A stretch of DNA of 64,000 nt from a virus, in the IMG/VR virus record IMGVR_UViG_3300032242_002636, positions 43,455 to 107,454 of that record; one strand, written 5' to 3'. Below, one piece after another: positions 8,756-40,874 of this stretch; position 1 is the stretch's first letter, and each line of letters starts with the position of its first letter. A program made the position numbers and the translations under genes. Under the pieces are notes generated by a model. That model did not search any database. It was not told the origin of the DNA and saw only the letters and a program-made list of their open reading frames with translations.

Positions 8756-8784
8756 ATTATAGATTGCTTTGATGATATTAACAA
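8756..8784 (-). promoter_or_regulatory. Sigma70-like promoter of gp41, start-proximal
   Basis: Minus strand: TTGTTA (8784-8779), 17-base spacer, TATAAT (8761-8756), then 8 bases to the ATG at 8747. The predicted transcription start falls within about 2 bases of the start codon. Confidence 0.65.
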
Positions 8785-8789
8785 CGCTT

Positions 8790-9887
8790 TTATTCTTCTC
8801 TCTTAAATTTAAGCTCTGATTGGAGTTTTTCTTCTAGCTTTGGAAGAATCTTTGCCCAAGCAGCATCATCATCTTTCCAATCCTTGTAAAATCCAAGGAC
8901 TTCCTCACCGACAACATAACGATGACCTTGCTTTGTAATAACACCATATCCCTCTGCCATCTCAAGAAGACCAGAATACTTTGAAATTCCAGTTCGGAAG
9001 TTCAGATACATTTCAGCCTCAAGGAAAGGAGGAACAAAGCGATTCTTGGTAGTCAATGCCCTCATGGTAAGTCCATTAACATCCTTGGAGAGAGGAGTAG
9101 TTTCGTCTGAAGCATTCTTGTTGTCAGATTTTCCCACACGCTCTTGCTTGGTTGCCATCTGAACTAGCACAGAGGACATATACAGAGGTCCAGAACCACC
9201 AGACTGACTCTTTATTAGTGTAGGATAAAGAGCACCGGGATTGTCATATGTATGATTGGTAAAGACAACAGGGCAATTAGCTTTAGCAGCAGCATGAGTA
9301 ATTGCTCTAAGCATACTCTTGAGAGAGACTGCTCTTGCTCCCATGTCAGCAGAATCTTTACCGTCTTCAATAACCTTTGCCTCTCTTGCAGAAATAAGAT
9401 TACCAAGAGAGTCGATTGCAATCATCACCTTTCCCTGAAGTTTATTTTCAACAACAGTCTTTAAGAATTTAACAATCTGATTACGACACTCCTCAATAAT
9501 CTCAATAGGACAATGCTTAATCTTTGCAGGATCACAACCAAGACTCTCGGCAGTATCCTTGTCCAAAGCATTTTCTGTATCAAAGTAGACTACATGCATA
9601 CTTTTCTTCTGAGCATTAGCCATGATCTTATTAACCATGAGAGTCTTTCCGCAAGCCTGTGGACCTGCAAAACCAATAATTCTTCCCATAGGAATTCCAC
9701 CATAGAGAGAACCTGAAATAATTGCATTAAGAGCCATACAACCTGTATCAATCCACTCCTTAACGGTGGACAAGGTATTCTCATCCAAAAATTGAGCATC
9801 GGGATTAAGATCATCTAGGATCTTAAATGCATCTTTAATATCACCACTGAACTCTGTATCTTCTGTTTCGTTTTTCTTTTTAGCCAT
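8790..9887 (-). CDS. uvsX: RecA-like recombinase UvsX
   Basis: UvsX forms filaments on gp32-cleared ssDNA and drives strand invasion for recombination-dependent replication. The protein has Walker A GPQACGKT (75-82), Walker B VMIAIDSLG (Asp 159), a glutamate-containing YFDTENALD (101-109) and the glycine-rich DNA-binding loop KSQSGGSGPLY. The start at 9887 (MAKKKNETED) is preferred over an upstream in-frame ATG at 9914, which would lie inside the promoter. With this start the protein is 365 residues, near the T4 length (391). Confidence 0.92.
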   Translation of the reverse strand: MAKKKNETEDTEFSGDIKDAFKILDDLNPDAQFLDENTLSTVKEWIDTGCMALNAIISGSLYGGIPMGRIIGFAGPQACGKTLMVNKIMANAQKKSMHVVYFDTENALDKDTAESLGCDPAKIKHCPIEIIEECRNQIVKFLKTVVENKLQGKVMIAIDSLGNLISAREAKVIEDGKDSADMGARAVSLKSMLRAITHAAAKANCPVVFTNHTYDNPGALYPTLIKSQSGGSGPLYMSSVLVQMATKQERVGKSDNKNASDETTPLSKDVNGLTMRALTTKNRFVPPFLEAEMYLNFRTGISKYSGLLEMAEGYGVITKQGHRYVVGEEVLGFYKDWKDDDAAWAKILPKLEEKLQSELKFKREE

Positions 9888-9893
9888 ATCAAT

Positions 9894-9921
9894 ATAATAA
9901 CACAAAATCCACAAAAGTCAA
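9894..9921 (-). promoter_or_regulatory. Sigma70-like promoter of uvsX, start-proximal
   Basis: Minus strand: TTGACT (9921-9916), 16-base spacer, TATTAT (9899-9894), then 6 bases to the ATG at 9887. The expected +1 is the A of ATG, predicting a leaderless mRNA. Confidence 0.65.
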
Positions 9922-9937
9922 AGACCTTTGTGGATTT
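9905..9937. repeat. Perfect 11-bp inverted repeat around the uvsX -35 box
   Basis: AAATCCACAAA (9905-9915) and TTTGTGGATTT (9927-9937) are perfect reverse complements separated by 11 bases. The -35 hexamer of the uvsX promoter starts the central spacer (9916-9921). On the minus strand no U-run follows, so a terminator is unlikely; an operator for a dimeric regulator fits the geometry better. This role is inferred. Confidence 0.6.
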
Positions 9938-9970
9938 GTACTGGTTTCTTTTTTTGGATGCGATTACGAA

Positions 9971-10375
9971 TTACTCATCAAAAAGGTTTATGATAGCTGG
10001 ATTAGCTTGTGTTGCTCCAGCAGGTGTTACCTCACCAGCGGTGGGTGGTACAAAGATGTTGCTCTTGTTGAACATCTGATCATACTGAGCCTTCAGACGG
10101 AAATCAAAAGCCTCAATATCGGTCTCGGTGATGCTATTCTTCTTGAATGAGAAGATAACATCTCCACTCTTATCTGCTAAGAACTCACGGAAGAAGATAG
10201 GAAGAAGCTGAACTGACATTCTTCCACTCTGGTCTTGTGGTACTACATGGAGTACAACTGGATTCTTAACAGCCAAGACTGTTTCAGTGGTTTTACTTGC
10301 ATCCTTTTCGCCTACAATCGTTCTACCGACTGTATCAAGGAATGTTACTATGGTTGTTGTTTCTGTTTCGCTCAT
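9971..10375 (-). CDS. Hypothetical protein upstream of uvsX, 134 aa
   Basis: Not assigned. A strand-rich core (VLAVKNPVVLHVVPQDQ, then QLLPIFFREFLADKSGDVIF) is followed by a Pro/Ala-rich stretch and a C-terminal INLFDE. The last part could be a protein-contact tail like clamp- or SSB-binding peptides, but that is speculative. Its own promoter lies inside the 3' end of thyX. It sits directly before uvsX, a position where other T4-like phages also carry small conserved genes. Confidence 0.65.
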   Translation of the reverse strand: MSETETTTIVTFLDTVGRTIVGEKDASKTTETVLAVKNPVVLHVVPQDQSGRMSVQLLPIFFREFLADKSGDVIFSFKKNSITETDIEAFDFRLKAQYDQMFNKSNIFVPPTAGEVTPAGATQANPAIINLFDE

Positions 10376-10384
10376 ATGTTTTAT

Positions 10385-10412
10385 ATTTTACTACAAGTTA
10401 GTTATAAGTCAA
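10385..10412 (-). promoter_or_regulatory. Sigma70-like promoter, start-proximal
   Basis: Minus strand: TTGACT (10412-10407), 16-base spacer, TAAAAT (10390-10385), 9 bases before the ATG at 10375. It overlaps the last codons of thyX. Confidence 0.55.
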
Positions 10413-11058
10413 CTGACTTTTTCCAATTTAATGCTTCACTAGTATTAGGAAATATATCAATTAATATATCTTTAATAGCAATAGCAATCTCTCTATGTTC
10501 TAATTGAGTATCTTCGTTTGATCTAAGATCAACATAATGTGTCCAGCTTCTAAGGTTTCCTGTCATGTACATAGTTGTTTGTGTACAAAGAGGAAGAATC
10601 ATACGAGCACATTCTTTTGCTGCACCTTTCTTTATAAGTTTATCATACAATTCAGCACCAGTTACCAAATAATTTTTAAGATTTTCCAAATCATTATCAC
10701 TAAGATCCATTAAATCTGCACTGGATTGTCTGTTTTTATCTGCTTGCTTCCTTACTTGGAAAGATTCAAAGTCTGTAACCTCACTATATCTCTGACTAAA
10801 TTCTTGAAAGCAAAAACTTCTATGACGAAGAATCTGTGCAGCAATTGCTCTTGAGGTGACAATTTGAAACGTCAAAGAAACTTGTTCAAATGGCGACCAG
10901 TGCTTATGTTTTATAAGATAAGCAAGTAACTTTGGTGCTGTTTCGGTATTCATCTGATTAGATGGATTGGAAACTCTTGCTATGTAGCTTATAAGATCTT
11001 CAGGGGAAAGAATACCTTCGATTACTGGTTGAGTTAGACTTATTAATTTTACGTTCAT
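10402..11058 (-). CDS. thyX: FAD-dependent thymidylate synthase ThyX
   Basis: ThyX methylates dUMP to dTMP using FAD, NADPH and methylene-tetrahydrofolate, supplying thymidine for replication. The signature RHR-x7-S is present as R78-H79-R80 to S88 (RHRSFCFQEFSQR). A substrate-binding region appears near the C-terminus (NLRSWTHYVDLR, then LEHREIA). Length 218 is usual for the family. The gene lies between the polymerase gene (17-base gap) and the 134-residue gene, behind its own promoter. Confidence 0.93.
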   Translation of the reverse strand: MNVKLISLTQPVIEGILSPEDLISYIARVSNPSNQMNTETAPKLLAYLIKHKHWSPFEQVSLTFQIVTSRAIAAQILRHRSFCFQEFSQRYSEVTDFESFQVRKQADKNRQSSADLMDLSDNDLENLKNYLVTGAELYDKLIKKGAAKECARMILPLCTQTTMYMTGNLRSWTHYVDLRSNEDTQLEHREIAIAIKDILIDIFPNTSEALNWKKSVDL

Positions 11059-11064
11059 ACCAAT

Positions 11065-11092
11065 ATTATAAACTATTATGAGAATAAATCAA
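11065..11092 (-). promoter_or_regulatory. Sigma70-like promoter of thyX, start-proximal
   Basis: Minus strand: TTGATT (11092-11087), 16-base spacer, TATAAT (11070-11065), then 6 bases to ATG. The -35 box lies inside the 3' end of gp43. It predicts a leaderless mRNA. Confidence 0.65.
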
Positions 11093-13649
11093 TAAGATCA
11101 GTATGAACTTGCATGGTAACTTGAGGAAGATCCCATCCTATACAATCATATAATCTTTCAATCGGAGGAGTTACGCTTTTATTAAACATTTTTTCGTAAT
11201 CTATCGTGAAAACATCAGAAAGTTCTTTAGGAAATTCGTCTAAGAATGCCATTGAACTAAAATTAAAAGGATTTCTAGCAGGATAAAACCATTTTATTTT
11301 AATACCACTTCCAATAGACTCATATTTTGATGTTAAATCATAATGTTTCAACATTTCATTGAAATGAATGGCTCCTTTTGAATGTACAGGAGTTCCTTTT
11401 CCAATTTTTCCATCATCTCCAATCTTTCTTTCCTGTTTTCCTAGATCTGAAATGTTACTACGGAAAGAAATATCTTGAATAGGCATACTACAAAACTTGT
11501 CATATGCCTCTTTTAAGATTTTATTGGATGCTGACTTGTCTTGAGAAAGAATCGCAAGCTCAATAACATTTTTAATCAGGCTTTTTGTGGCTTCTGAGAA
11601 AGAAGAACGCACAACTTCAACACCTACATATTTAAATGGATTTTTAGGAACAACTCCTTCTGATTCCAGAACATGCATAATGTATCTCTTCTTTTCCATG
11701 AAGACCGCAACATCACAAACAGCTTCTTGTTTGAAAATAAATCTAGGATCTATGGATTTAAGATCAATCTTTGCCCAATCAATGATTTCTTTATTAAGAT
11801 AATTACCAATATCTTTAATAACCTTACGAGCTTCATCGGTTATCTTTCCGTTTTCCAATAATTTTATGTTTAGATGATTTAGAATAGGTTGGAAAGAGAA
11901 GTAAGCACTATCAGTATCACCATATTTGTAAATATCCTTCTTTTCACAAGACAATCCTTGGTTTAACGCATAGTTATATACGATTTCAGATGCTTGTTTA
12001 ACGACTGATTGACCAGTTAAGGTGATACTTGCGGCATGATCAATGTCATATAAAGGAGAATAACGCTGTCCAAAGACACCATAGATGGAGTTTAGAATGA
12101 GTTTATAGACGTTTTGGATGGTATCTAGGTCTAGAATCCTCTCTTCTATCTTTTCAAGCTGAGAGGGATCTTTAATTTTCTTAGATTCCTTCTTTAATTC
12201 GATCATTTTGTTCTTTGCATCAACACGTTCCGTATAAAGACGATCAATAAACTTAGGAACAACACCTTGAAACTTCTGTGTGTACAGAACATTATACTTT
12301 GAAACAGAAAGTTGTTCCTTTTTTACAAGTCTTTGGAACTTTTCTTCTTCTAAAGTAACTATTTTGTTGTTTGAAAGTCTTAATGTATAGTTTCCATCCT
12401 CTACAAGAGTGATTTTACCTATTTTTGTCTCTGGAGAGACGTTAAGGGAGATGATTGTGTTAGGATATAGACTGTTTGCATCATAACTAACGACTGCTTT
12501 ACTCAAACCACGCTCTGGTTCATGTACATATCCACCTACATAATCAGTTTCTCCTTCATCTAGCTTGAATGTAGGTATAATCATACCATCTTTTGATGCC
12601 TGATGAGCGATTGCACCAGTAATAAGTGACACTTTACCTAATGATTGCTCAAAAGGAATGAATCCTTTGTATGAAAGTGTACGAATTAGTTTGATATACT
12701 TGAGCTTTTCATCAAGTTTTACCAGCAATCTTACGTCTTGGATGTTGTAATCAACGAATTTTTTCCAATCAGTATCAGAAAGTGTTGATAAATTGGTTGC
12801 TCCGATATCAACCTTAGTCTCTCCAAGCTCATATTGACCAATATAACCCAATTTATATGACTCTCTATCACTCCTTGCAAAGGATTTATAGGCTTCCATG
12901 TAATCAATACAGCTTAATCCTCTGATATACCAGCGATTGATTACTTTTCCGAACTTATCTACACCAACATTCTCTCTATAAAAGATAGAATTAACAGGAG
13001 AAAGTCTTGCTGCATCCTCTGAACTGAGGACATTATGCAAACGAGTCATGATATATGGAATATCGAACCCACTTGAGTTCCATCCAACCAATATATCAGG
13101 TGGATCTGCTTCCCAAAACATCAAGAATCGTTGAATTAATTCTATCTCAGACTTACAATGAAAGTATTTTACATTAGAATCCGAAGGAGTATACGGCTTA
13201 AGTCCCCATGTATAGTAGGTATCATTAAGAGTATTGTAAATTGTGATGAGATTTATAGGATCTTCTGCTTTTTCTGGAACAGGAAATGATCCTGTTGAGT
13301 AGGTTTCGATATCGAAGAAGTAAACCTTAAGAGGAAACTGTCCAAAGTTTGGGTTATCTATCTCATCTTTGTATGTACTGAGAAGAAAGTCTTGGTCACA
13401 ACCTATGTTATGGAACAATCTCTTTATAGGAGTCTCGTTTACAAATTTATTCCTTTCAAATTGATTCTTGAAAGTCAGTTTTCTCAATGGAGTATTGAAA
13501 ATAGAGACTCCATCTGTTGCTTTGGGTGACTCTACAAACAGATGAGGCTCATAACTACTTTCAATCTTAATACGATTACCGTTTTCATCCCATGTCCAGA
13601 GATGAATTAACTGGTTTTTGCTATCGTAATATACATTTCTCCACGCCAT
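11076..13649 (-). CDS. gp43: DNA polymerase, family B, gp43-like
   Basis: This is the replicative polymerase with proofreading. Exonuclease motifs are FFDIET (Asp 113, Glu 115), NSSGFD (191-196) and YNIQD (Tyr 301, Asp 305). Polymerase motifs are DANSLYP (A, 390-396), KLILNSIYG (B, 516-524) and YGDTDS (C, 576-581). All catalytic residues are intact, and length 857 is close to T4 gp43 (898). A hairpin lies directly against the AUG, and the upstream glycosyltransferase gene ends only 8 bases before the start, so the two appear co-transcribed. Confidence 0.96.
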   Translation of the reverse strand: MAWRNVYYDSKNQLIHLWTWDENGNRIKIESSYEPHLFVESPKATDGVSIFNTPLRKLTFKNQFERNKFVNETPIKRLFHNIGCDQDFLLSTYKDEIDNPNFGQFPLKVYFFDIETYSTGSFPVPEKAEDPINLITIYNTLNDTYYTWGLKPYTPSDSNVKYFHCKSEIELIQRFLMFWEADPPDILVGWNSSGFDIPYIMTRLHNVLSSEDAARLSPVNSIFYRENVGVDKFGKVINRWYIRGLSCIDYMEAYKSFARSDRESYKLGYIGQYELGETKVDIGATNLSTLSDTDWKKFVDYNIQDVRLLVKLDEKLKYIKLIRTLSYKGFIPFEQSLGKVSLITGAIAHQASKDGMIIPTFKLDEGETDYVGGYVHEPERGLSKAVVSYDANSLYPNTIISLNVSPETKIGKITLVEDGNYTLRLSNNKIVTLEEEKFQRLVKKEQLSVSKYNVLYTQKFQGVVPKFIDRLYTERVDAKNKMIELKKESKKIKDPSQLEKIEERILDLDTIQNVYKLILNSIYGVFGQRYSPLYDIDHAASITLTGQSVVKQASEIVYNYALNQGLSCEKKDIYKYGDTDSAYFSFQPILNHLNIKLLENGKITDEARKVIKDIGNYLNKEIIDWAKIDLKSIDPRFIFKQEAVCDVAVFMEKKRYIMHVLESEGVVPKNPFKYVGVEVVRSSFSEATKSLIKNVIELAILSQDKSASNKILKEAYDKFCSMPIQDISFRSNISDLGKQERKIGDDGKIGKGTPVHSKGAIHFNEMLKHYDLTSKYESIGSGIKIKWFYPARNPFNFSSMAFLDEFPKELSDVFTIDYEKMFNKSVTPPIERLYDCIGWDLPQVTMQVHTDLIDLFS

Positions 13650-13668
13650 AGAGAGTATTATACTCTCT
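13650..13668 (-). promoter_or_regulatory. Hairpin abutting the gp43 start codon, candidate translational operator
   Basis: AGAGAGTA (13650-13657) and TACTCTCT (13661-13668) form an 8-bp stem with a 3-base loop. The loop is the stop codon of the upstream glycosyltransferase gene, and the 3' arm ends at the base before the gp43 ATG. T4 gp43 represses itself by binding a hairpin at its ribosome-binding site; an equivalent role here is inferred. Confidence 0.5.
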
Positions 13669-14971
13669 GCTCTGGGTTATTTGCAACTAAAATCTTTGAT
13701 TTAGCGTTTCTTTCTTTAGATCCCCAAGCGGTTGTGTATATTGCTTCGTATTCATCCATATGATTTTCTAACCATAGACCTTCTGTAAAGGTTCTAGCCT
13801 TTCCAGACAGATCCATATAGCGATCAAAGTCAGAAGTAATATACTCTAACTGAGAAATTAGATCCTTACCATCCTTAAACGGACATTCTGCTCCCTCATA
13901 GGTGCAAAGATCCTGATAAGCACCGGGTAATCCGAATGCTCCTGCCTCAACCATCTTGATATTGCTCTTGGATTTGTTGAATACGTTATCAACGAGAGGT
14001 GCGAATACTGCATTGGCTCCTACATCGTGAATACTTTGTGGAAGATCCATTAAAGGAGACCAATCAATGTATTCCATTTCACCATTATCAATGAATGGTT
14101 TGACTGCAAGTGGGTAGCATCCCTTCCATACAAACTTAAATTTCTTACGAGCCTTGATAATTTCTTCTACTACATGAGAGAAATCATCTTTCATCCCTGT
14201 ACGATTGGTTACATCAATGTGTGTTCCAGATCCAGCATAAAGAATACGAGGACGCTTCTTATGTCTGTCATAGAGTTCTTCAACACGTTTCTTATCATAG
14301 AAACGATCAAGCCAAAACTTAGGAGGATAGTTAGGAATGACTGTAATATTTTTATTACCTGTCTTATTGATGTAGTAATCTTTCATGTACTGACAGGTGA
14401 CAGTTACTTCATCCATCATTCCCATGATTTCTAAGATACTTGAAATGATATCTTGGCTTACGAATGCATCTTTACATCTATTATAGTCAGGAATATCATC
14501 CTTGAAGACGATATCATCGACTTCATAAATCAAACGATATCCCATCTGAGGCTTTGCCTTTACCAATTCTTTAATGAATGCATTCTGTACAGGTGTTGCC
14601 TGTCTTTGCATTCTGATTGCACTAATTCCTTGATAGAATCTAAGATCCAAAACCATACAAGTAAGTCCTGAAATGACTGCCTTGTTATAACTATTTAAAC
14701 AAAATTCGGGCCAAATCATTCTCCAATATCCACAGCCACCGTAATCAGCATAGTAATTGATAGCTCTAGGAAGGCTCATCTCTGGCATATCAATAGGAGG
14801 AGGCTCTGGAAGTTTTACAGGATTTGCGGCTACATAACTGTAGCTAGGCATACCCAAAGGAAGATTATTAGGAGCATTTGGAATACCGCTCTTGGTTGGC
14901 TTGTATTCGTATACAATGCTCTTTGAAGTATCTACAGGAGCAGGAGTATTAGAACCTTTTATCTTAATCAT
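13658..14971 (-). CDS. Glycosyltransferase, GT-B fold (GT4-like), 437 aa
   Basis: The C-terminal half carries a GT4-type nucleotide-sugar site: PRILYAGSGTH (near 247-257), then FNKSKSNIKMVEAGAFGLP, where the Glu of KMVEAGAFG corresponds to the conserved glutamate of the EX7E region. The N-terminal half holds YEVDD (150-154) and a Rossmann-like pattern, preceded by about 60 Pro-rich residues. The acceptor is unknown. It is unusual for a glycosyltransferase to head the polymerase transcription unit, and coupling to gp43 is tight. Confidence 0.75.
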   Translation of the reverse strand: MIKIKGSNTPAPVDTSKSIVYEYKPTKSGIPNAPNNLPLGMPSYSYVAANPVKLPEPPPIDMPEMSLPRAINYYADYGGCGYWRMIWPEFCLNSYNKAVISGLTCMVLDLRFYQGISAIRMQRQATPVQNAFIKELVKAKPQMGYRLIYEVDDIVFKDDIPDYNRCKDAFVSQDIISSILEIMGMMDEVTVTCQYMKDYYINKTGNKNITVIPNYPPKFWLDRFYDKKRVEELYDRHKKRPRILYAGSGTHIDVTNRTGMKDDFSHVVEEIIKARKKFKFVWKGCYPLAVKPFIDNGEMEYIDWSPLMDLPQSIHDVGANAVFAPLVDNVFNKSKSNIKMVEAGAFGLPGAYQDLCTYEGAECPFKDGKDLISQLEYITSDFDRYMDLSGKARTFTEGLWLENHMDEYEAIYTTAWGSKERNAKSKILVANNPEQRV

Positions 14972-14979
14972 ATTATTTT

Positions 14980-15008
14980 ATATTAACAAATGGTGTGTTA
15001 TAAATCAA
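14980..15008 (-). promoter_or_regulatory. Sigma70-like promoter, start-proximal
   Basis: Minus strand: TTGATT (15008-15003), 17-base spacer, TAATAT (14985-14980), 8 bases to the ATG at 14971. It would serve the glycosyltransferase-gp43 pair. The -10 match is weaker than at neighbouring sites. Confidence 0.45.
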
Positions 15009-16816
15009 GGTGCTATGGAAGTTTTACCGTCTTTCTTCTCTAACTTAATAATTGCATCAAAGTTAGAATTAACAGCAGCCTTATTATGAGATATGATATA
15101 AACAGCCTCATCATATTTGTCGGTTCTTTCTCTTAAAATCTCAAGAATTTTGTTAACTCCCTTCTCATCTAAGGCAGAATCAAACAACTCATCATACATA
15201 CTCAGATTGAAAGCAACACCTGTCTGCATTCTTAGTATATCTTGGAACATAAAGAGGATAGCAATGTCTATTCTCTTTCTTTCACCACCACTAAAATTGA
15301 AATAGGAACATTCCTTGCCTTGTGTATTGTAGATTGTTTCTTCAAACATCTCATTGAATTCACATGTACAAGGAGCATCAAGAGTTTTTAGATAGAAATT
15401 AAGCTGTGCATTCAGTACAGAAAGCATTTTCTTGACGATAAAAGTTTTAACACCTTCTTCAGATACAACAAACTTTGCAGTTTCTAAAACCAAAAGATGT
15501 TTTTGCAAATCAGAAATGTTTTTTTCCAGATTCTCTATTTTCTTTTGAGCATCTTCTATCTTTTTATCATCTTTGAACTCTTCCTTTTCTATCTCTTCGA
15601 TGTTTTCTTGATACTCTTCTATTTTTTCCTCTAAGGATTTTATTTTCTGCTCATGTAAAGCAGAATTTGATATCTCATCCTTATAATCTTTGATCTCATC
15701 CTTAAGAGTTTCTATGTTATTGGTAATCTTTGAACCGAAAGCAGTTTTTTCAGATCCTATCTTCTTATTTTCATCATAGATGGGTTGGTTAATAGAAATT
15801 AACTCATCTAATTTTTTAATTTCACTTTCAATATACTGTAAATCATCTTCACAATACTGTCTGTTGCAAGTAGGGCATACATTTCCCTTATCTAATATCT
15901 TTTGCTTCTCTTTTTTAGCTTGGTTTATAGTATTATAAGCTTCGGATTTATTTTCTCCTATCTCTACTATTTCTCTGTTTGTTTCGATCAATAATTCTCT
16001 GAGCTTTTCAATCTTATCCTCATTATTCTTTATCTTTTCCTTTAAAGAAGAAATTTCAGGAATGTCTTTTTTTCTCAATGAGGCTAAATCATTTTTGGTA
16101 ACATCAATTTTCTTATTAATACTCTCTATTCTTTCTGATTTGTTCTCATCAAATCCTTCCTTACTGTTTTCTAAAAACTCTAGTATTCTTTGTTCTGAAG
16201 AAAAATCTTTGGATAGGAATTCGTTTTCCTTTTTCTTTTCATTGTAGTCTGCTCTTGTCTTTAAAAGCATCTCACCAAAGATTCCAAGATTTAAAATACC
16301 TTCAACAAACTTTCTCTTATCAATCTTTTTCTGTGCCATGAAGGGCATGGTATTATTTGCCGTCATGATCACAGCATTTTGAAATACTTCTTCGTTTGCT
16401 CCTATCAGTTGCTTGATATACTCATCAGTCTTCGGCATCGTAGAAAGAGAAATATCTTCTAAAGATAAGTCTCCATACTTCTCTAAGAGAAGTTTACTAG
16501 GCTCCAATGATCTAGTTAATTTATAAGATGTGGAAACCTTGCCGTCTTCAATAGCAAATTCCAAAACTACAACAGAACCTCCTTTGCTTTGGTTGTGTAC
16601 TATCTTGTCCTTTTTAATATCTCTGATAGTAGAACCAAACAAAGCCCAATAAATTGACTCTATAAGAGAGCTTTTACCAACACCATTCCTGCCACCATTG
16701 TCTTTATTCTCTCCAGTTATCAGAGAGATTCCCTTCTTAAAATCTAAAGAGACTTCTTCTTTTCCTATAGATAGGAAATTCTTGATTGAAATACTATTAA
16801 ACTTAATTTTTTTCAC
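15005..16816 (-). CDS. gp46: Recombination nuclease ATPase subunit, gp46/SbcC/Rad50-like
   Basis: With gp47 this forms the Mre11/Rad50-type complex that resects DNA ends for recombination and replication. Walker A is GRNGVGKSS (42-50). A long coiled coil carries a zinc hook CPTC near residue 314. The ABC signature FSGGERKR lies near 507 and Walker B LSMYDELFD near 540, followed by IISHNKA. Length 603 is close to T4 gp46 (560). The start is GTG. The partner gp47 gene is 8.2 kb upstream, separated by glycosyltransferase genes. Confidence 0.93.
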   Translation of the reverse strand: MKKIKFNSISIKNFLSIGKEEVSLDFKKGISLITGENKDNGGRNGVGKSSLIESIYWALFGSTIRDIKKDKIVHNQSKGGSVVVLEFAIEDGKVSTSYKLTRSLEPSKLLLEKYGDLSLEDISLSTMPKTDEYIKQLIGANEEVFQNAVIMTANNTMPFMAQKKIDKRKFVEGILNLGIFGEMLLKTRADYNEKKKENEFLSKDFSSEQRILEFLENSKEGFDENKSERIESINKKIDVTKNDLASLRKKDIPEISSLKEKIKNNEDKIEKLRELLIETNREIVEIGENKSEAYNTINQAKKEKQKILDKGNVCPTCNRQYCEDDLQYIESEIKKLDELISINQPIYDENKKIGSEKTAFGSKITNNIETLKDEIKDYKDEISNSALHEQKIKSLEEKIEEYQENIEEIEKEEFKDDKKIEDAQKKIENLEKNISDLQKHLLVLETAKFVVSEEGVKTFIVKKMLSVLNAQLNFYLKTLDAPCTCEFNEMFEETIYNTQGKECSYFNFSGGERKRIDIAILFMFQDILRMQTGVAFNLSMYDELFDSALDEKGVNKILEILRERTDKYDEAVYIISHNKAAVNSNFDAIIKLEKKDGKTSIAP

Positions 16817-16823
16817 TTTTATT

Positions 16824-16851
16824 AGTATATACTAAAATAAAGTAATTTCAA
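16824..16851 (-). promoter_or_regulatory. Sigma70-like promoter of gp46, start-proximal
   Basis: Minus strand: TTGAAA (16851-16846), 16-base spacer, TATACT (16829-16824), 7 bases to the GTG at 16816. It gives gp46 expression independent of the glycosyltransferase block. Confidence 0.65.
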
Positions 16852-17591
16852 CCTGATAGTATATCTTTATTATTCCAATAAAATTTCTCATTAGGATATG
16901 AATTAATTGTTTTAAATTCTAATTTTCTAGGTTCTCCAAACATTCCCTCTATTCCAGAATCGGTCTTAGAATATTTCTTATTGAATATAAAGTCTCTGTT
17001 ATATGCAGTATAGTGCATGATTCCTGTTTTAACACCACTTGGTTTACTTCCATCATGTGCATTAATAATCCCACTCATCATTGGTTTATGAACCTTCTTA
17101 CCTATCTCCTCTAGTCTCCAAAACATATCGGTATCTTCTTCTCCTATTCCTAATAATCTTTCTTCAAACCATCCTACCTTTTCTACTAATTTTCTATTAA
17201 TAAAATAATGCGACCAAGAACCATTTATGGCAAATGCTTCTGTATCTTTATGGTTATCTGCTATGTTAGATAAAGATTCAAAAGAAAAATTCCTATCTAT
17301 AATAACATCATCATTTAGGATTAAATTCCAATCTTTAGGGCTATTTATTAGGATTGTATTCCATAATTTAGCCAAGCTCCTGAATTCAGGAAACATAGAA
17401 ACTATGCAATTAGGAGTTTCACTTGCTAGTTTCAATATTTTTTTCCTATAGTCTTCATCAATAGGTTGATTGTACTCTCCGTTAACAGCAAGTATTATAG
17501 TCCAATTACCTCTTTCTCTTATAGAAGATATTAGATTTTTAACTCTTTCAAATCTGGCTTTAAAGGTTGTTATTCCTATTGCAAAACTCAT
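16848..17591 (-). CDS. Glycosyltransferase, GT-A fold (GT2-like), 247 aa
   Basis: Opens with the GT2-type strand FAIGITTFKARFERV, has the nucleotide-sugar metal motif as LILNDDVII (near residues 90-98), and ends the catalytic domain with GIGEEDTDMFWRL, a GEED-type acceptor/base motif. A His near HDGSK could complete metal binding. It is the last gene of the glycosyltransferase block and overlaps the upstream gene by 32 bases. Sugar and acceptor unknown. Confidence 0.75.
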   Translation of the reverse strand: MSFAIGITTFKARFERVKNLISSIRERGNWTIILAVNGEYNQPIDEDYRKKILKLASETPNCIVSMFPEFRSLAKLWNTILINSPKDWNLILNDDVIIDRNFSFESLSNIADNHKDTEAFAINGSWSHYFINRKLVEKVGWFEERLLGIGEEDTDMFWRLEEIGKKVHKPMMSGIINAHDGSKPSGVKTGIMHYTAYNRDFIFNKKYSKTDSGIEGMFGEPRKLEFKTINSYPNEKFYWNNKDILSG

Positions 17592-18483
17592 AAAACTTAT
17601 TTAGCACAGCATCGAATCTTTGGATTGATGTATGATTGTTTAAAACATTTTGATAGCCATTATTTGCTATTCTTTCTCTTTCTTTATCGTTCTTGGAATA
17701 GAAGTTTATTTTTTCTATGGCATCTTCCATGCTATCGTAAAAAACAATATCCTCTCCATCGGTAAAGAGCGTGTCTAATCCTCTTTCAAAAGGAAGTCTG
17801 TCTGTCATCACCATTCTTTTACAATACATTCCTTCAAATATTCTTCTGGAAACTTCTCCGTATCTACTATTTTGAATTACAATTTTTCCTGTGCTAAGAA
17901 GATCTCTCTGTAGAATATTAAAGTCTCTTTTATTAGAGAATCTATTGCCTATTCTTGATTTAAGCTCATCTAGAAATGGTGTGTCTCCGTCTCCTCGTGT
18001 GCTTACGACATCATATGTTGGTTTGATATCAGGATTTTCTGAACCTTCTAATGCATCTGCAAAGTGTGTCCAGTAAATTGCATCTATATCTCTCTTTTTA
18101 TACTCCTGTAATGAAACCAAATCAGGAGTCAGAACAAGATCAAAGTTCCATGCCTTATTAGAATTGTTACCAAAGCACTGAGGATCGTCTCCAGCTTCCA
18201 TTACGGTATAGATGTCTGGAAAGTATTGCCTATCAAGTAAGGGATGATTAAAAGCTCCATAATCCATATGGAAGATTATGTCTGGTTTATATTGACCACT
18301 TTGTATATGTTGGTATAAAGCAGTCAATCCAGATATTGAATACTGTTTATTCCTGTCATATAAAGAATATATACGACCTTTTATATTTCTTCTCTTGGAT
18401 TCATTAACTATGGAGAGGGGAGTAGACCATCTCTCATCAGGCATCCATGCAAAAAGAAAAGCTATGTTAAGATTATTTTCCAT
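17560..18483 (-). CDS. Glycosyltransferase, GT-B fold (CgeB-like), 307 aa
   Basis: The C-terminal part (EVSRRIFEGMYCKRMVMTDR, near 205-225) is the donor-site helix of group-1 glycosyltransferases of the CgeB type, followed by a usual DGEDIVFYDSMEDAIEKI segment. The N-terminal half contains PDIIFHMDYGAF and LVLTPD, typical of a first Rossmann domain. Overlaps neighbouring genes on both sides (32 and 11 bases). No signal peptide, so it acts in the host cytoplasm. Confidence 0.75.
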   Translation of the reverse strand: MENNLNIAFLFAWMPDERWSTPLSIVNESKRRNIKGRIYSLYDRNKQYSISGLTALYQHIQSGQYKPDIIFHMDYGAFNHPLLDRQYFPDIYTVMEAGDDPQCFGNNSNKAWNFDLVLTPDLVSLQEYKKRDIDAIYWTHFADALEGSENPDIKPTYDVVSTRGDGDTPFLDELKSRIGNRFSNKRDFNILQRDLLSTGKIVIQNSRYGEVSRRIFEGMYCKRMVMTDRLPFERGLDTLFTDGEDIVFYDSMEDAIEKINFYSKNDKERERIANNGYQNVLNNHTSIQRFDAVLNKFYEFCNRNNNL

Positions 18484-19204
18484 CTATTCTATCATGACAG
18501 AATAATCCATCACCTGTTATTACATTAAAATCTTGATTACTCCACCAAGATGTTGCTGCTGTTTCTATGTCTGTATTATCAATACAGAATTGAGGAATGA
18601 TATGCTTCTTATAAAAGTCCCTTCTAAAGATACAGGGATTGTTTGTAAAGTTAGCATTGGCTGATTTGAATTTATACCATATAGGAGATTCACTTATCTT
18701 CTTACAGTATTCAGGAAAATCTAAATCGGGTGTATCTCTCCAGTGTGTACATTCTGCCAAATGAGTCATGCATCTGTGTTCTTGACCAGTAAACCAAGAT
18801 GAATACAAAGGATTACCGGGATTTTTTCTATGTCTGAGTCTTGCAACATCCGCTATTTCATTGTTTATTAATTCTGTTCCTGTTTTTAAAATATCTATTA
18901 CTTTCTGTTTATCTTTTTCTATGAGAAAAAAATCATCTTCCAATAAAAGAATATTATTAGATATACAATTTTCTACAAGCCATTTAAAACCAGCGGCTAT
19001 CCATTTATTACTATCTGCTACATAAGTTTCTACATTAAAATCCTTGAGAACATCAACAGTCTCTTTTACTAAAGAAGAAGGATTAACATATACACTAATC
19101 TGTTTGAATTCTTCATTAATACCCTTTTCAAAAATACTGTTTAATGTATTTCTAAGAGTATTTGGAGCATTATAAGTTAAAATTCCTAAAGTTAAATCAT
19201 TCAT
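18473..19204 (-). CDS. Glycosyltransferase, GT-A fold (GT2-like), 243 aa
   Basis: N-terminal LTLGILTYNAPNTLRNTLNS is the GT2 opening, and ILLLEDDFFL (near 83-92) is the DxD-type metal motif. The C-terminal part is Cys/Trp/His-rich (CMTHLAECTHWRDTP) and lacks a clear EDxD motif, so catalytic residues downstream are uncertain. It overlaps the next gene by 11 bases and the previous one by 4. Sugar and acceptor unknown. Confidence 0.65.
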   Translation of the reverse strand: MNDLTLGILTYNAPNTLRNTLNSIFEKGINEEFKQISVYVNPSSLVKETVDVLKDFNVETYVADSNKWIAAGFKWLVENCISNNILLLEDDFFLIEKDKQKVIDILKTGTELINNEIADVARLRHRKNPGNPLYSSWFTGQEHRCMTHLAECTHWRDTPDLDFPEYCKKISESPIWYKFKSANANFTNNPCIFRRDFYKKHIIPQFCIDNTDIETAATSWWSNQDFNVITGDGLFCHDRIDGK

Positions 19205-20460: not shown

Positions 20461-20463
20461 ATT

Positions 20464-22007: not shown

Positions 22008-22010
22008 AAA

Positions 22011-30210: not shown

Positions 30211-30224
30211 ATTTGTACTTATAG

Positions 30225-30232
30225 GTAAATAT
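30225..30232 (+). promoter_or_regulatory. Late-promoter-like box GTAAATAT
   Basis: GTAAATAT lies 4 bases before the ATG at 30237. Matches the NTAAATAN motif seen before other structural-type genes here. Confidence 0.45.
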
Positions 30233-30236
30233 AACA

Positions 30237-35719: not shown

Positions 35720-35735
35720 AATTTTTAGTTCTTAT

Positions 35736-38699
35736 CTATAAATAAACTGGTATATAACCAATATAATTTCCATTATAATCAAAAGCAGAAACACGTTTTG
35801 AGAATGTACCAAGTGTACCAGCAGTTCCTGTACAATTAAATGCAGGATTTGTCATAGTAACTCTACCTTGTGAACTTAAGTTATTAACATAGGTATAATT
35901 TACTTGTTTAGCACTTAAACCAGAACCTAATAAGAACGTATTGTCATAGTTTGTATAGTTAGCACAACCTCCAGCTATGAAGGAACAAGAACTATTATAG
36001 ATGTAATTGTTTTTTCCACTTGTAATATTTGAACTATCTACAGTACAATTATAAGCGTATATAGTATTACCATGTCCACTTATAATACTGGAATCAAGTA
36101 AAAAGCTTATAGGATACGAATAAGCAGAATTAGAATTATTATTACATAAAGTATTATTAGAACCACCAGAAATACCTAAATTGTTTATTGCACTATTTAG
36201 GTTAGCATTACATATAGTATTATAAGAACCACTAGTAATGTTTGAATTATAAAAATAACCACATGTTGCGCCTCCAGATATACTATTATGAGAGCCACCA
36301 CCTATACTTAGAAAAGAACCGGGATTATAATTACCAAAACCAGAAGAGTTTATTGAATTCGACTGACCACCTACAATACTTGAATACTCTGCATTAATTG
36401 TATTACCACCACCTCCTCCGATATTAGAAGCACCAAGATAAATTGTATTACCAGCACCACCCCCGATATTAGAATTACCACCAGAAACTGTATTAGCATT
36501 TCCACCAGCTATGTTGGAATAACCACCAGAAACTGTATTAGCCTTTCCACCAGCTATGTTGGAATAACCACTAAAAACTGTATTATTTTTACCACCAGCA
36601 ACATTAGAAGCACCACCACAATTAACTAAATTGCTTACACCACCTGCAATAAAAGAACAAGAAGCATTATAAATAAGATTACCATGACCACCTGCTATAC
36701 TAGAATCATTTATATTTCTATTTAAACCGCATATACTATTATTACAACCGCCAACTATAGATGTATTGGAAAGAGTGCCATAGTAACGAACAGAATTAAT
36801 ATTATTAGAACCACCTGCTATAAATGCATTTGAAAGATTGCTATTATTATAACCACAATTACTATTACCACAACCACCTGCTATCGATGTATTTGAAAGA
36901 GTGCTGCATAAACCAATACTATTAATATTATTACAACCACCAGCTATCGATGTATTTGAAAGAGTGGAGCAGTAACCACTATTACTATTACCAGATCCAC
37001 CTGCTATCGATGTATTTGAAAGAGTGGAGCAGTAGCAACCACTATTACTATTACCAGATCCACCAGCTATCGATGTATTTGAAAGAGTGGAGTAGCAACC
37101 ACTATTACTATTACCACAACCACCAGCTATCGATGTATTTGAAAGAGAACTACTAGCACTACAATTGGTATTACTTGAACCACCAGCGATATTTGAATAA
37201 AATATACCTCCACCACTGCTATTACTACAACTACTCGTGCTATTATTATAGCCACTGATAATACCTGAGCTATTTATACAGCTATAACAGGATTTTATAA
37301 TATTGTTACAGCCACCAGCAATATTTGAATTACAAATACAGCCATAATACGGGTATGTAAGTATTGTATTACTACTTCCCCCAGTAATATTTGAATTACA
37401 AATACTAGAATAATAAGCACTATTTGTAGCAATATTGCCACCACAAGTAGGTGTAATAATATTAGCACCTACACTAGTATTATATTGATATACAGATCCT
37501 GCAAAAGCATCACAAAGTAAATAACCAGTCGTTGCATCACAGGTTGCTACATTTGCACTACCAGTACTTGTTGCATATCCAGAGTTTGTTGCATATGTAG
37601 CACTAACAGCAGTACTAGCACTTGTTGCATATCTAGCACTAACAGCACTAACAGCAGTACTAGCACTTGTTGCATATCTAGCACTAACAGCACTAACAGC
37701 AGTACTAGCACTTGTTGCATATCTAGCACTAACAGCAGTACTAGCACTTGTTGCATATGTAGCACTAACAGCACTAACAGCAGTACTAGCACTTGTTGCA
37801 TATGTAGCATTTGTAGCATTTGCAACTGTTCCATTTAAAGAATAAATTGTACCACAAACACAAAGATCGTTTGTATAGGTTGTATTTGAAGCACCAGCTG
37901 TTATGCTTGATCCAAGAATAAAGGAATTATCGGCTGTATTTATTGTATTATTATGACCACCAGCAATAAATGAACAATTAGAATTATAGATTGAATTACT
38001 ATCACCACTTGCAATAGCTGAACCATTTGAAGAACCATAATAACTAGATATGGTATTATTATACCCACCAGCTATATTAGAATTATTTAAAGAACTACGA
38101 TAACAACCAGATATAGTATTATGAGAACCACCAGCTATATTAGAATTTTCAAAAAATACACAATCAGCGTTACTAGTAATTTTATTATTAGAACCACCAC
38201 CTATGTTTAAAGTACTTGAAACTCCCCAACTTATTGGTGAAGCAGTTATTAAATTATTTACACCGCCTACAATACTTGAATAATCTGTATTTACAATATT
38301 ACCACCGCCACCACCGATATTAGAAGCACCACCAGAAACTGTATTACCACCGCCGCCACCGATATTAGAAATTTCACCAGAAACTGTATTACTACATCCT
38401 CCTCCAATATGAGAAGAATTACTGGCTGCATTATTTAAACCACCACCTATTGCTGAGTAATTTCCATAAGCATTATTATTATTACCACCAACTACATTGG
38501 CATATAATCCACCAGCTATATTAGATCCCTTTACTGGTTTAATAGAATTAGTACCAGAGCCAAAATTATAAACATTATCATTAAGCAAAGCAGATAAAGG
38601 AGTCTGATATGTGGTTCCTTGTATATTTGCTATAAGAACTGCACTACCCGATACTGTAAAATTATTAAATGGCAACTGACTAATTTTCTTTGTGGACAT
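35736..38699 (-). CDS. Long tail fibre/adhesin with YadA-head-like repeats, 987 aa
   Basis: Start at 38699 (MSTKKISQLPFNN) is preferred to 38747: the N-terminus then has the common phage-fibre anchor style, and a TATAAATA box lies 5 bases upstream. Two blocks (about residues 50-275 and 400-945) consist of 14-21-residue repeats of the type SNIAGGxxNTVSGG, the left-handed roll seen in YadA-type trimeric adhesin heads. Between them sits a low-complexity segment of YATSASTAVSA repeats (about 310-385), probably a flexible or coiled stalk. The C-terminus (SKRVSAFDYNGNYIGYIPVYL region) may be the tip or trimerisation domain. Likely trimeric and receptor-facing. Confidence 0.8.
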   Translation of the reverse strand: MSTKKISQLPFNNFTVSGSAVLIANIQGTTYQTPLSALLNDNVYNFGSGTNSIKPVKGSNIAGGLYANVVGGNNNNAYGNYSAIGGGLNNAASNSSHIGGGCSNTVSGEISNIGGGGGNTVSGGASNIGGGGGNIVNTDYSSIVGGVNNLITASPISWGVSSTLNIGGGSNNKITSNADCVFFENSNIAGGSHNTISGCYRSSLNNSNIAGGYNNTISSYYGSSNGSAIASGDSNSIYNSNCSFIAGGHNNTINTADNSFILGSSITAGASNTTYTNDLCVCGTIYSLNGTVANATNATYATSASTAVSAVSATYATSASTAVSARYATSASTAVSAVSARYATSASTAVSAVSARYATSASTAVSATYATNSGYATSTGSANVATCDATTGYLLCDAFAGSVYQYNTSVGANIITPTCGGNIATNSAYYSSICNSNITGGSSNTILTYPYYGCICNSNIAGGCNNIIKSCYSCINSSGIISGYNNSTSSCSNSSGGGIFYSNIAGGSSNTNCSASSSLSNTSIAGGCGNSNSGCYSTLSNTSIAGGSGNSNSGCYCSTLSNTSIAGGSGNSNSGYCSTLSNTSIAGGCNNINSIGLCSTLSNTSIAGGCGNSNCGYNNSNLSNAFIAGGSNNINSVRYYGTLSNTSIVGGCNNSICGLNRNINDSSIAGGHGNLIYNASCSFIAGGVSNLVNCGGASNVAGGKNNTVFSGYSNIAGGKANTVSGGYSNIAGGNANTVSGGNSNIGGGAGNTIYLGASNIGGGGGNTINAEYSSIVGGQSNSINSSGFGNYNPGSFLSIGGGSHNSISGGATCGYFYNSNITSGSYNTICNANLNSAINNLGISGGSNNTLCNNNSNSAYSYPISFLLDSSIISGHGNTIYAYNCTVDSSNITSGKNNYIYNSSCSFIAGGCANYTNYDNTFLLGSGLSAKQVNYTYVNNLSSQGRVTMTNPAFNCTGTAGTLGTFSKRVSAFDYNGNYIGYIPVYL
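36475..36600. repeat. Tandem 60-bp coding repeats in the fibre gene
   Basis: Successive copies of ccaccagaaactgtattagc followed by ttccaccagctatgttggaa occur at about 36479-36524 and 36529-36584, with a third diverged copy after. They encode consecutive SNIAGGKANTVSGGY-type turns. Confidence 0.75.
36872..37145. repeat. Five-copy 60/63-bp near-identical repeat in the fibre gene
   Basis: The core gctatcgatgtatttgaaag recurs with ATCGAT at 36883, 36946, 37006, 37069 and 37129, spacings of 63, 60, 63 and 60. The units stay in frame and encode LSNTSIAGGCGNSNSGCYST-type modules. Near identity at DNA level points to recent duplication or gene-conversion-like exchange. Confidence 0.85.
37558..37812. 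repeat. Low-complexity repeats encoding YATSASTAVSA units
   Basis: Repeated 33- and 45-base units built from gcactaacagcagtactagc and acttgttgcatat, at least five copies. All lengths are multiples of three, so copy-number change would keep the fibre frame. Confidence 0.85.
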
Positions 38700-38704
38700 A
38701 AAGT

Positions 38705-38712
38705 TATTTATA
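38705..38712 (-). promoter_or_regulatory. Late promoter box TATAAATA before the fibre gene
   Basis: The minus strand reads TATAAATA exactly, the T4 late-promoter consensus, ending 5 bases before the ATG at 38699. Confidence 0.65.
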
Positions 38713-38729
38713 TTTATCTCAATAGGAAG

Positions 38730-38737: not shown

Positions 38738-38747
38738 TCATAATCAA

Positions 38748-39092: not shown

Positions 39093-39127
39093 CTTGATTT
39101 TATTCATTTCTTTGGTAAAATAGGGGA

Positions 39128-39400: not shown

Positions 39401-40038
39401 AAATAGCCGTATCAGGTACACATTGCCAAGGAAAAAGTACTTACATAAAAGACTTTTTGAAAACATGGACTAACTATAAGACACCAGAAAAGTCTTATAG
39501 AGATTACATCAAGGAACAAAACCTTCCACATTCTAAAGAAGGAACCGAAGAGAGTCAGCAGATTATTCTCAATGCTCTTCTTGATCAGGCACAGGAATAT
39601 TCAAAGAATGATAATGTCATTTTTGATCGTTGTATTCTTGATAATCTTGCCTATTCTTCTTGGCTTAATCTTAACGGAAAAGTTTCTGATAAATTCTTGG
39701 ATGAATCAAGAATCCTTATCCGTGAAGCACTCAAGACTTTTGATGTAATTTTCTTTGTTCCTCTTACAAAGGTTGCACCTGTAGAATTCAAAGAAGATGA
39801 TCTTCGTGACAATGATCTTGTCTACCGTGAGGAGATTGACAACATCTTTAAGGTATTTGTTCAGTCTTTCCATCAGGGAGACGGAAGAGTATTTGCTGCT
39901 GATGATGCTCCTCCTATCATTGAAATCTTTGGTAATCCTATTGAGCGTATTGAAATGACAAAGCTCTATATTACAGAAGAGGGACAGCCATATGGAGAAG
40001 ACAAGAGTTTAATTTCTGACATTTATACAGGTATCTAG
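39397..40038 (+). CDS. P-loop nucleotide-kinase-like ATPase (AAA_28 type), 213 aa
   Basis: GTHCQGKST (7-15) is a Walker A loop at the very N-terminus, as in nucleoside/nucleotide kinases and NadR-type enzymes. VIFDRCILDNLAYSSW (near 73-88) is the DR-containing substrate-binding motif, and DVIFFVPLTKV the next core strand. EIDNIFKVFVQSF and the later helices fit the lid region. A role in nucleotide metabolism is likely; the exact substrate is not readable. Confidence 0.7.
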   Translation: MKIAVSGTHCQGKSTYIKDFLKTWTNYKTPEKSYRDYIKEQNLPHSKEGTEESQQIILNALLDQAQEYSKNDNVIFDRCILDNLAYSSWLNLNGKVSDKFLDESRILIREALKTFDVIFFVPLTKVAPVEFKEDDLRDNDLVYREEIDNIFKVFVQSFHQGDGRVFAADDAPPIIEIFGNPIERIEMTKLYITEEGQPYGEDKSLISDIYTGI

Positions 40039-40039
40039 G

Positions 40040-40047
40040 ATAAATAT
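40040..40047 (+). promoter_or_regulatory. Late-promoter-like box ATAAATAT
   Basis: Twelve bases before the ATG at 40060, directly after the stop of the kinase-like gene. Confidence 0.5.
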
Positions 40048-40059
40048 CATATATTATAT

Positions 40060-40839
40060 ATGAAATTTGATGTCTTAGCAGAAAGTATTATATCCTCCTT
40101 AGTAAACGAAGGTCGTTTAGCAAAGGCTTCTAAGTTTGCAAACATTTCTGTTGATGCAGAAAAGCTTGCAGAGAAGTTAAATGCTGGTGATTTTGAAATT
40201 CTAACAAAGGGATGGGCTGGTAATCCTAGATATGCAAGTCTTTCAGAAGACGAAATCAAGGATGTCATAAAAAACGTAGCTACTCAAATTACAGAGTATC
40301 AACCTTCTTCATACCAAGACTTAAATTCAACAATCGAAGGTGTTGTTGATAATGTTTATGCTAATAAAGGTCCAAATAGAAAGACCTATAATACCAGACT
40401 TACAAAGGCAATTGCAAATCTTATTACCCATAAAGAATATGGATTAGTTTCAATCGGTGAATCTCCAAAAACACAGGAGAATGAATACGATATCGAAGGT
40501 CTTTCACAAGTAGAATCTGCTGTTTTAGATTTTATTACACAGGCTGATGTACCAACAAACATCAAAGATGTTGAGACACAGTTTGCCAATGGAAGTGATA
40601 TCGTAGATTCCTTGGTAGAAAAGGGATTTGTAAAGAGAGAAGGTGATATCTTAACCGCTCCTGACAGTGAAGAAGGTGGTAAGGTATTGGATGTTGAAGA
40701 TGAGGACGAGGAAGATCCTCTAGAGGCAGAACCAGATGTTGCCAGAGCATATAGAAGTACAGTAGGAAATACAAGAAGCTACGATGATGACAATAGCGAT
40801 GATACTTCTATGGGATATGTCCCATCTTGGGAGAGATAA
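40060..40839 (+). CDS. Virion-type hypothetical protein, 259 aa
   Basis: The N-terminus MKFDVLAESIISSLVNEG belongs to the amphipathic, Glu-ended type shared by several small proteins here, resembling T4 capsid-targeting sequences. Residues about 165-210 (QVESAVLDFITQADVP then DIVDSLVEKGFVKREGDILT) look like a winged-helix fold. The last 50 residues are highly acidic (DVEDEDEEDPLEAEPDVARA). Not otherwise recognised; a head protein injected or processed during assembly is one possibility. Confidence 0.6.
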   Translation: MKFDVLAESIISSLVNEGRLAKASKFANISVDAEKLAEKLNAGDFEILTKGWAGNPRYASLSEDEIKDVIKNVATQITEYQPSSYQDLNSTIEGVVDNVYANKGPNRKTYNTRLTKAIANLITHKEYGLVSIGESPKTQENEYDIEGLSQVESAVLDFITQADVPTNIKDVETQFANGSDIVDSLVEKGFVKREGDILTAPDSEEGGKVLDVEDEDEEDPLEAEPDVARAYRSTVGNTRSYDDDNSDDTSMGYVPSWER

Positions 40840-40846
40840 AAAAACT

Positions 40847-40874
40847 TTGACATTTCAGTAGTTTTTAGTATACT
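40847..40874 (+). promoter_or_regulatory. Sigma70 promoter of the primase gene, start-proximal
   Basis: TTGACA (40847-40852), 16-base spacer, TATACT (40869-40874), then 6 bases to the GTG at 40881. The expected +1 is the G of GTG. Confidence 0.75.

Follow-up and report, generated by a model that had tools for sequence, protein, structure and literature searches.

Leaderless mRNAs as such are well known. Among bacteria, leaderless genes are commonest in Deinococcus-Thermus and frequent in Actinobacteria, and in sequence they are marked by a TA-like box some 10 bases ahead of the start (PMC3160421). The nearest phage precedent is phiYS40, which infects Thermus: a review reports that most of its middle and late mRNAs are leaderless, and that infection raises the host initiation factor IF2 and lowers IF3 (PMC3594737). 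Another article states in a passing remark, which weighs against novelty, that phage transcripts are 'often leaderless' (PMC5312081). Among the literature matches listed, we found no report of leaderless T4-like phages, and the match to these terms together with promoter in PMC9004378 lies in the title of a reference. Here we describe a T4-like phage lineage in which promoter-proximal genes of both temporal classes are very probably leaderless or nearly so. The stretch analysed (the window) is 64,000 bases long and comprises bases 43455–107454 of the 107,454-base virus contig IMGVR_UViG_3300032242_002636 (G000); the elements in question are sigma70-like promoters and T4-type late promoter cores that adjoin start codons.

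The likeness to phiYS40 is that of a phage with leaderless mRNAs, reported for phiYS40 and predicted here from sequence. The difference is that the phiYS40 report concerns middle and late mRNAs (PMC3594737), whereas here sigma70-type replication genes are included, the late class is expected to depend on a sigma factor of the gp55 type and the phage is T4-like. With leaderless bacterial genes the contig shares a −10-type element about 10 bases before the start, at genes that lack a Shine–Dalgarno site; however, the bacterial survey deals with a share of chromosomal genes (PMC3160421), and the present case with two promoter classes of one phage lineage.

The contig has a G+C content of 32% and belongs with the T4-like phages by its replication, recombination and tail genes of T4 type. 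Those identified include gp43, gp41, uvsX, gp46, SbcD/gp47, gp55, uvsW, uvsY and the single-strand binding protein, together with virion genes for sheath, terminase, tube, baseplate and head closure. In the phage collection, no match to its polymerase, uvsX or terminase reaches 60% identity. Genes were called piecewise over the whole contig by a codon-usage score that is blind to upstream sequence. A sigma70 site was preset as a −35 box starting with TTG, a spacer of 16–18 and a −10 box that fits TANNNT and departs from TATAAT at no more than one base, with at most three mismatches in total. The late core was TAAATA or TAAGTA (TAARTA), scored at gaps of 4–13, the gap being the number of bases between the promoter element (−10 box or late core) and the start codon. 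A Shine–Dalgarno match was a five-base match to AAGGAGGTGAT within 20 bases before the start, and dinucleotide shuffles and shifted start codons served as controls. Pooled results refer to 729 genes of five related contigs: G000 (111 genes), G001 (202), G005 (210), G010 (109) and G011 (97).

Sigma70 sites at gaps of 3–12 precede 13 of the 111 G000 genes. Chance is excluded because 200 dinucleotide shuffles gave a mean of only 0.6 (maximum 3); with shifted starts the mean was 0.4 (maximum 3, 300 runs), and both controls rule out A/T richness as the source. Further upstream, the gap ranges 13–22, 23–32, 33–42 and 43–52 hold 1, 2, 1 and 1 sites. The other contigs have 9/202 (G001), 12/210 (G005), 8/109 (G010) and 4/97 (G011) such genes, and control means over the five contigs were 0.3–1.1 for shuffles and 0.4–1.1 for shifted starts. 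The original prediction had listed eight such promoters in the window, all with spacers of 16 or 17. All eight are present before the named start codons, with those spacers and at the gaps it gave, but the list was incomplete, missing the promoters of gp43 (gap 7) and of the gene at 39128 (gap 6). The gp41 promoter is likewise present, although the gene was left out of the statistics because the gene caller put its start at an internal ATG. The clustering of −10 boxes before start codons relative to shuffles, which the prediction had offered as its check, holds genome-wide, and its reading of this placement as leaderless mRNA is supported, from sequence only, by clustering far above the shuffles. 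Its restriction to a replication or early programme proved too narrow: the early genes fit, but late-type promoters are placed likewise.

Late cores at gaps of 4–13 were found before 32/111 genes in G000, 47/202 in G001, 51/210 in G005, 40/109 in G010 and 27/97 in G011, against shuffle means of 3.2–8.0 and maxima of 8–15 (mean 4.5 for G000). When only those G000 genes are counted that have 25 or more bases in front of them or a divergently oriented neighbour, 23 of 57 have a late core, against a mean of 2.4. The cores are not simply the TAA stops of upstream genes, which account for only 21 of 270, and the peaks persist once these are removed. TAARTA is a TATAAATA-like core of the kind used in T4-type late transcription; it corresponds to the T4 core minus its first base, because a preceding A is favoured (0.53) and a preceding T is not (0.26). 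The window also encodes a gp55-type sigma factor, the one expected to read late promoters; one of the two promoter classes is presumably read by a phage sigma factor. A gp55 gene was found in four of the five contigs, the match in G005 holding one stop.

The two elements tend to divide the listed genes of G000 by function. Sigma70 sites stand before uvsX, thyX, gp43, gp46, uvsY and primase, and late cores before the tail sheath, tail tube, baseplate hub, large terminase, sheath stabilizer and one baseplate wedge gene (six of the nine virion genes listed). Exceptions are nrdB, which has a late core at gap 13, and a baseplate wedge gene that scores as sigma70 at gap 9; neither element was seen at the head-closure, tail-fibre, gp47, gp55, uvsW, gp32 and nrdA genes. 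Two further entries of this list, thymidylate kinase and a helicase, did not match a gene with the start given for them. One of the late cores in the window precedes a gene for a 987-amino-acid protein that has no PHROG match.

The distribution of gaps suggests where transcription would start. Among the 729 pooled genes, sigma70 sites number 0 at each of the gaps 2, 3, 4 and 5, and then 23, 10, 3, 4, 3, 2 and 1 at gaps 6–12, with seven stray sites at gaps −2, 0 and 1. Late cores number 2 and 2 at gaps 3 and 4, then 55, 54, 19, 17, 12, 13, 16, 7 and 9 at gaps 5–13, followed by a low tail. In T4, the late core spans −13 to −6, and T4-type early −10 boxes have their conserved T at −7 (PMC1524935). 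By this geometry, the shortest frequent gaps, 5 for late cores and 6 for sigma70 sites, would make the first base of the start codon +1, and anything shorter would cut it off. Gap 5 itself separates the classes (55/202 late against 0/48 sigma70 elements at gaps 5–13; Fisher p 2.7e-6). When the most upstream ATG of each open reading frame was used instead (730 genes), the peaks were unchanged, with 51 and 55 late cores at gaps 5 and 6 and 24 sigma70 sites at gap 6. This rule and the N-termini of orthologs, which start at the same codons in most rows, rule out wrong start codons as the explanation.

Shine–Dalgarno sites are rare at the same genes. In G000, matches occur at 1/13 sigma70 genes, 0/32 late genes and 0/28 other genes, and at 8/38 tightly packed internal genes; over the five contigs, the promoter-bearing genes have 1/46 (sigma70) and 5/197 (late). 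The near absence of such sites stated in the original prediction is therefore true of promoter-proximal genes and less so of internal ones.

Conservation was followed in 268 reciprocal-best ortholog pairs that reach the N-terminus. The late core is present in both members of 36 pairs and in only one of 42, the sigma70 site in both members of 14 and in only one of 34; two pairs are mixed and 140 have neither element. For the sheath stabilizer, the gap of 6 in G000 compares with 6, 5 and 6 in the G001, G005 and G010 orthologs, at identities of 76, 62 and 38%. Orthologs of thyX at loci L012–L014, L016–L018 and L042 retain promoter-like sequence at the start. The promoter is missing in some orthologs, namely uvsX of L020 and L023 and thyX of L020–L023 and L025, and among these the thyX genes of L021, L022 and L025 have AAGGAG instead. 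The gp46 start, GTG in the window, is also GTG in L011–L015, L019, L023, L027 and L038, and ATG in the other orthologs.

T4 and T4-like cyanophages have the same replication and virion genes, gp55 and sigma70-like and TATAAATA-like elements, but their promoter elements lie mostly 18–35 bases upstream. We scanned slices of 40–50 kb from T4, Syn9, P-TIM68, B23 and Melnitz, and HTVC008M as a whole. In T4 1–45 kb, exact TATAAT lies at gaps of 25–34 in seven of eight upstream cases. In the late-gene region at 75–115 kb, exact TATAAATA lies at gaps of 24–28 in 8/9 and late cores in 9/12, and TATAAT is scattered (gaps 11, 17, 18 and 27). Late cores lie at gaps of 20–27 in 8/8 cases in Syn9, 19–34 in 13/13 in the Synechococcus phage B23 (33% G+C) and 18–35 in 12/16 in P-TIM68; in Melnitz, a single late core (gap 13) and a single sigma70 site (gap 7) were found. 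No sigma70 site at gaps of 3–12 was found among 64 T4 genes or 55 P-TIM68 genes in the slices, which have 34% G+C. HTVC008M is mixed: eight of its late cores lie at exactly gap 5, without a Shine–Dalgarno site by eye, as in the lineage described here, but its other late cores lie 18–31 bases upstream, several with a visible Shine–Dalgarno site, and its sigma70 sites are scattered over gaps 2, 6, 11, 12, 15, 20, 25, 28 and 31. This Pelagibacter phage (L094, L130 and L131), whose host is known, may therefore make leaderless late mRNAs beside leadered ones.

Related loci were grouped by identity to the window polymerase: A (at least 50%), B (41–44%) and C (28–34%). Group A has 51 sigma70 sites at gaps of 6–11 and Shine–Dalgarno matches in 12 of 322 distinct upstreams; it overlaps with the five contigs and is thus no independent sample, because it includes L011 (polymerase 100% identical), L013 (G001) and L023 (G005). 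Group B has 5 such sigma70 sites among 69 upstreams and 8 late cores at gaps of 5–10. In group C (228 upstreams, 37 with a Shine–Dalgarno match), 11 of 13 sigma70 sites lie at gaps of 21–32 and only 2 at gaps of 6–11, and 16 of 25 late-type words lie at gaps of 18–31. A quick, unrooted maximum-likelihood tree of polymerase pieces from 73 of 80 loci, the window and four reference phages separates groups A and B (42 rows) from group C and all references by a branch with 100% support in the Shimodaira–Hasegawa-like approximate likelihood-ratio test; T4 sits on a very long branch and its placement is unsure. With a root on the T4 side, the simplest account would be a single origin of the promoter placement, in the A and B clade.

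These comparisons bear on the best-surviving alternative, in which the A/T-rich motifs are translation-initiation signals, as in bacteria that do not use Shine–Dalgarno sites, and the true promoters lie elsewhere. The low G+C content, the late core's lack of a −35 partner and a distance that would fit a translation enhancer equally well all speak for it. However, the sigma70 sites need TTGNNN at a spacing of 16–18 and occur far above shuffles, other T4-like phages hold the same late core mostly 18–35 bases upstream, and the two classes have different lower edges, as expected from promoter geometry. We consider this alternative unlikely.

A second constraint on leader length may come from uvsX. 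A terminator-like hairpin overlaps its promoter in the window, and among the 28 uvsX orthologs whose upstream sequence is long enough the element recurs in 18, or in 11 of 19 distinct upstreams. The hairpins have energies of −20 to −27 kcal/mol, carry TTGAC at the loop and 3′ arm and are directly followed by a T-rich tract and the −10 box; the fold ends 11–19 bases before the ATG, depending on the A–U pairs added. Stem positions show both-sided changes in eight aligned sequences, with L036 and L039 one base out of register. If upstream transcripts end at the hairpin, the 5′ end of the uvsX mRNA can lie no more than about 20 bases from the AUG, and the hairpin would be an independent limit on the leader. 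In this arrangement the −35 box lies within the hairpin that would terminate the upstream operon; the 3′ arm and the T-rich tract would supply the spacer, with the −10 box and AUG coming straight after. Such a hairpin is not a general feature of starts: a strict scan of the five contigs gave only 8 cases in 730 genes, comprising uvsX in G000 and G001, five others with a promoter element and one without. No RNA family reached the gathering threshold in the window. The uvsX gene of G009 (L037 13862–15408) has an interruption of about 1.5 kb, the start of which resembles an intein N-terminal domain by eye and then loses frame; it gave no Rfam match to a known intron.

The promoters could also be real but minor, with most translation coming from longer mRNAs begun further upstream. 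Many genes are closely packed, so read-through is possible, and the uvsX and thyX orthologs without a promoter would fit. Against this stand the rarity of Shine–Dalgarno sites at promoter-bearing genes, the terminator-like hairpin before most uvsX orthologs and the AAGGAG carried by three of the promoterless thyX orthologs, and we rate the explanation as slightly less probable still than initiation signals. Single TATAAT-like words are common in A/T-rich sequence, but an artefact of starts miscalled beside random words of this kind is contradicted by the shuffles, the shifted starts, the first-ATG rule, the shared N-terminal codons and the empty T4 and P-TIM68 slices, and is highly improbable.

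Several observations nevertheless weigh against leaderless transcription or narrow it. Sigma70 gaps of 8–12 and late gaps of 7–13 leave leaders of up to 6–8 bases, so that many of the mRNAs would be near-leaderless only, and group A has two sigma70 sites at gap 5 and three at gap 0. The early signal is weak in G011 (4 sites at gaps of 3–12, 5 at 13–22), in which gp55 was not found. The late core is a single element, with no second element to mark a promoter, and gp33 and gp45 were not seen among the 70 proteins scanned of a contig that has more genes. Similar placements occur outside the lineage: 4/16 P-TIM68 late cores at gaps of 6–13, the eight HTVC008M late cores at gap 5 and its sigma70 sites at 6, 11 and 12 (167 genes), and 9/25 late-type words of group C at gaps of 0–5. 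The hairpin is absent from 10 of the 28 uvsX orthologs (L020, L023, L026–L028, L058 and four of the 50% group). Shine–Dalgarno matches occur at 23 of 246 tight internal genes of the five contigs.

An element at leaderless distance is present at 45 of the 111 G000 genes and missing from 66. Of the latter, 36 start within 12 bases of a same-strand stop (6 with a Shine–Dalgarno match), 14 show a TANNNT word alone and 16 show no recognisable signal. The programme had been predicted to be phage-wide, which is supported for both promoter classes and for related phages, but not for every gene, because these 66 lack an element and a leader is predicted for gp32. Genes inside operons may rely on coupling or on the few Shine–Dalgarno sites. 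For gp32 (4575–5435, minus strand; upstream 5436–5513), TTGCAA-17-TATTAT is followed by a predicted leader of about 43 bases that is A/C-rich, contains CAA repeats and lacks a Shine–Dalgarno site. T4 gp32 controls its own mRNA through an unstructured leader, and by analogy the leader in the window may serve the same kind of control. A/C-rich stretches also precede gp32 orthologs in L013–L016, L021 and L055.

From the positions of the elements, their statistics, their conservation and the contrast with other T4-like phages, we infer promoter activity, transcript 5′ ends, termination and the mode of translation as follows. Early genes would be read by the host sigma70 RNA polymerase and late genes by polymerase with gp55 of the phage as its sigma factor. 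Promoter and start codon would have moved together, such that the 5′ end of the RNA coincides with the first base of the start codon or lies a few bases from it. On promoter-proximal mRNAs, ribosomes would bind the 5′-terminal AUG or GUG rather than a Shine–Dalgarno site, and they would reach downstream operon genes either through coupling to the stop codon of the preceding gene or through occasional Shine–Dalgarno sites. With moderate confidence, we propose that the lineage fused +1 with the first base of the start codon in both promoter classes, that terminator, promoter and start share about 50 bases at uvsX, and that the host ribosomes either start well on 5′-terminal AUGs or are reprogrammed by the phages.

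Table 1. Promoter elements, uvsX hairpin and late sigma gene in the window (window positions)
Feature	Position	Strand	Details
gp41 helicase promoter	8756–8784	−	TTGTTA (8779–8784), spacer 17, TATAAT (8756–8761), gap 8 to ATG 8747
uvsX promoter	9894–9921	−	TTGACT (9916–9921), spacer 16, TATTAT (9894–9899), gap 6 to ATG 9887
Terminator-like hairpin overlapping uvsX promoter	9905–9937	−	15-bp stem, 3-base loop, T-rich tract; stem ends 17 bases before ATG
134-amino-acid gene promoter	10385–10412	−	TTGACT-16-TAAAAT, gap 9
thyX promoter	11065–11092	−	TTGATT-16-TATAAT, gap 6
gp43 DNA polymerase promoter	13657–13686	−	TTGCAA-18-TATAAT, gap 7; not in the original prediction
Glycosyltransferase (GT4-like) gene promoter	14980–15008	−	TTGATT-17-TAATAT, gap 8; weakest, below cut-off
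gp46 promoter (GTG start)	16824–16851	−	TTGAAA-16-TATACT, gap 7
Late core	17598–17603	−	TAAATA, gap 6 to gene 16848–17591; inside upstream gene
gp55-type late sigma gene	26098–26727	−	phrog_234 late sigma transcription factor, E 6.9e-26
uvsY promoter	28524–28551	−	TTGAAA-16-TATAAT, gap 11
Late core	30216–30221	−	TAAGTA, gap 5 to gene starting 30210
Late core	30226–30231	+	TAAATA, gap 5 to 186-amino-acid gene at 30237; G001 ortholog gap 6
Late core	38705–38710	−	TAAATA, gap 5 to 987-amino-acid gene 35736–38699
90-amino-acid gene (start 39128) promoter	39094–39121	+	TTGATT-16-TAAAAT, gap 6; not in the original prediction
Primase promoter (GTG start 40881)	40847–40874	+	TTGACA-16-TATACT, gap 6
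Late core	43594–43599	+	TAAATA, gap 6 to gene 43606–44019
Late core	46651–46656	+	TAAATA, gap 6 to tail sheath stabilizer gene (GTG 46663)
Late core	61887–61892	−	TAAATA, gap 10 to baseplate wedge gene 61370–61876

Several glycosyltransferase-like genes lie between gp46 and gp47 (16848–24310, minus strand) and may serve DNA or surface modification. Homing-endonuclease-like genes lie near uvsY (28827–30237, minus strand) and between the ribonucleotide reductase genes (L008 16177–16893).

Several searches bear on the host and its translation. A search of the genome contigs collection with uvsX found no relative. The bS21 ribosomal protein of G011 matched 15 loci, the best at 49% to a Cytophagaceae metagenome-assembled genome and others including Kapaibacterium, Saprospiraceae, Planctomycetes and Anaerolineae. 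Promoters of Bacteroidota follow the TAnnTTTG pattern, and those of the window do not. A bS21-like protein is encoded in two of the nine records of the phage group (G005 and G011) and was not found in G000; no IF3 domain was found in the nine. G005 (L111–L114) has 19 tRNA genes, and G000 has four (Gln, Val, Arg and Tyr) in bases 1–20000 (L008), outside the window, in which none was found.

Leaderless initiation is usually seen as an exception outside a few bacterial groups. The sequence rule that emerges here, with a shortest gap of 5 for gp55-type and 6 for sigma70-type promoters, might flag leaderless phages from sequence alone. If the reading is true, it would document an evolutionary switch with many orthologous genes on both sides, a leaderless lineage standing beside leadered relatives, and it would point to a host whose ribosome suits leaderless mRNAs.

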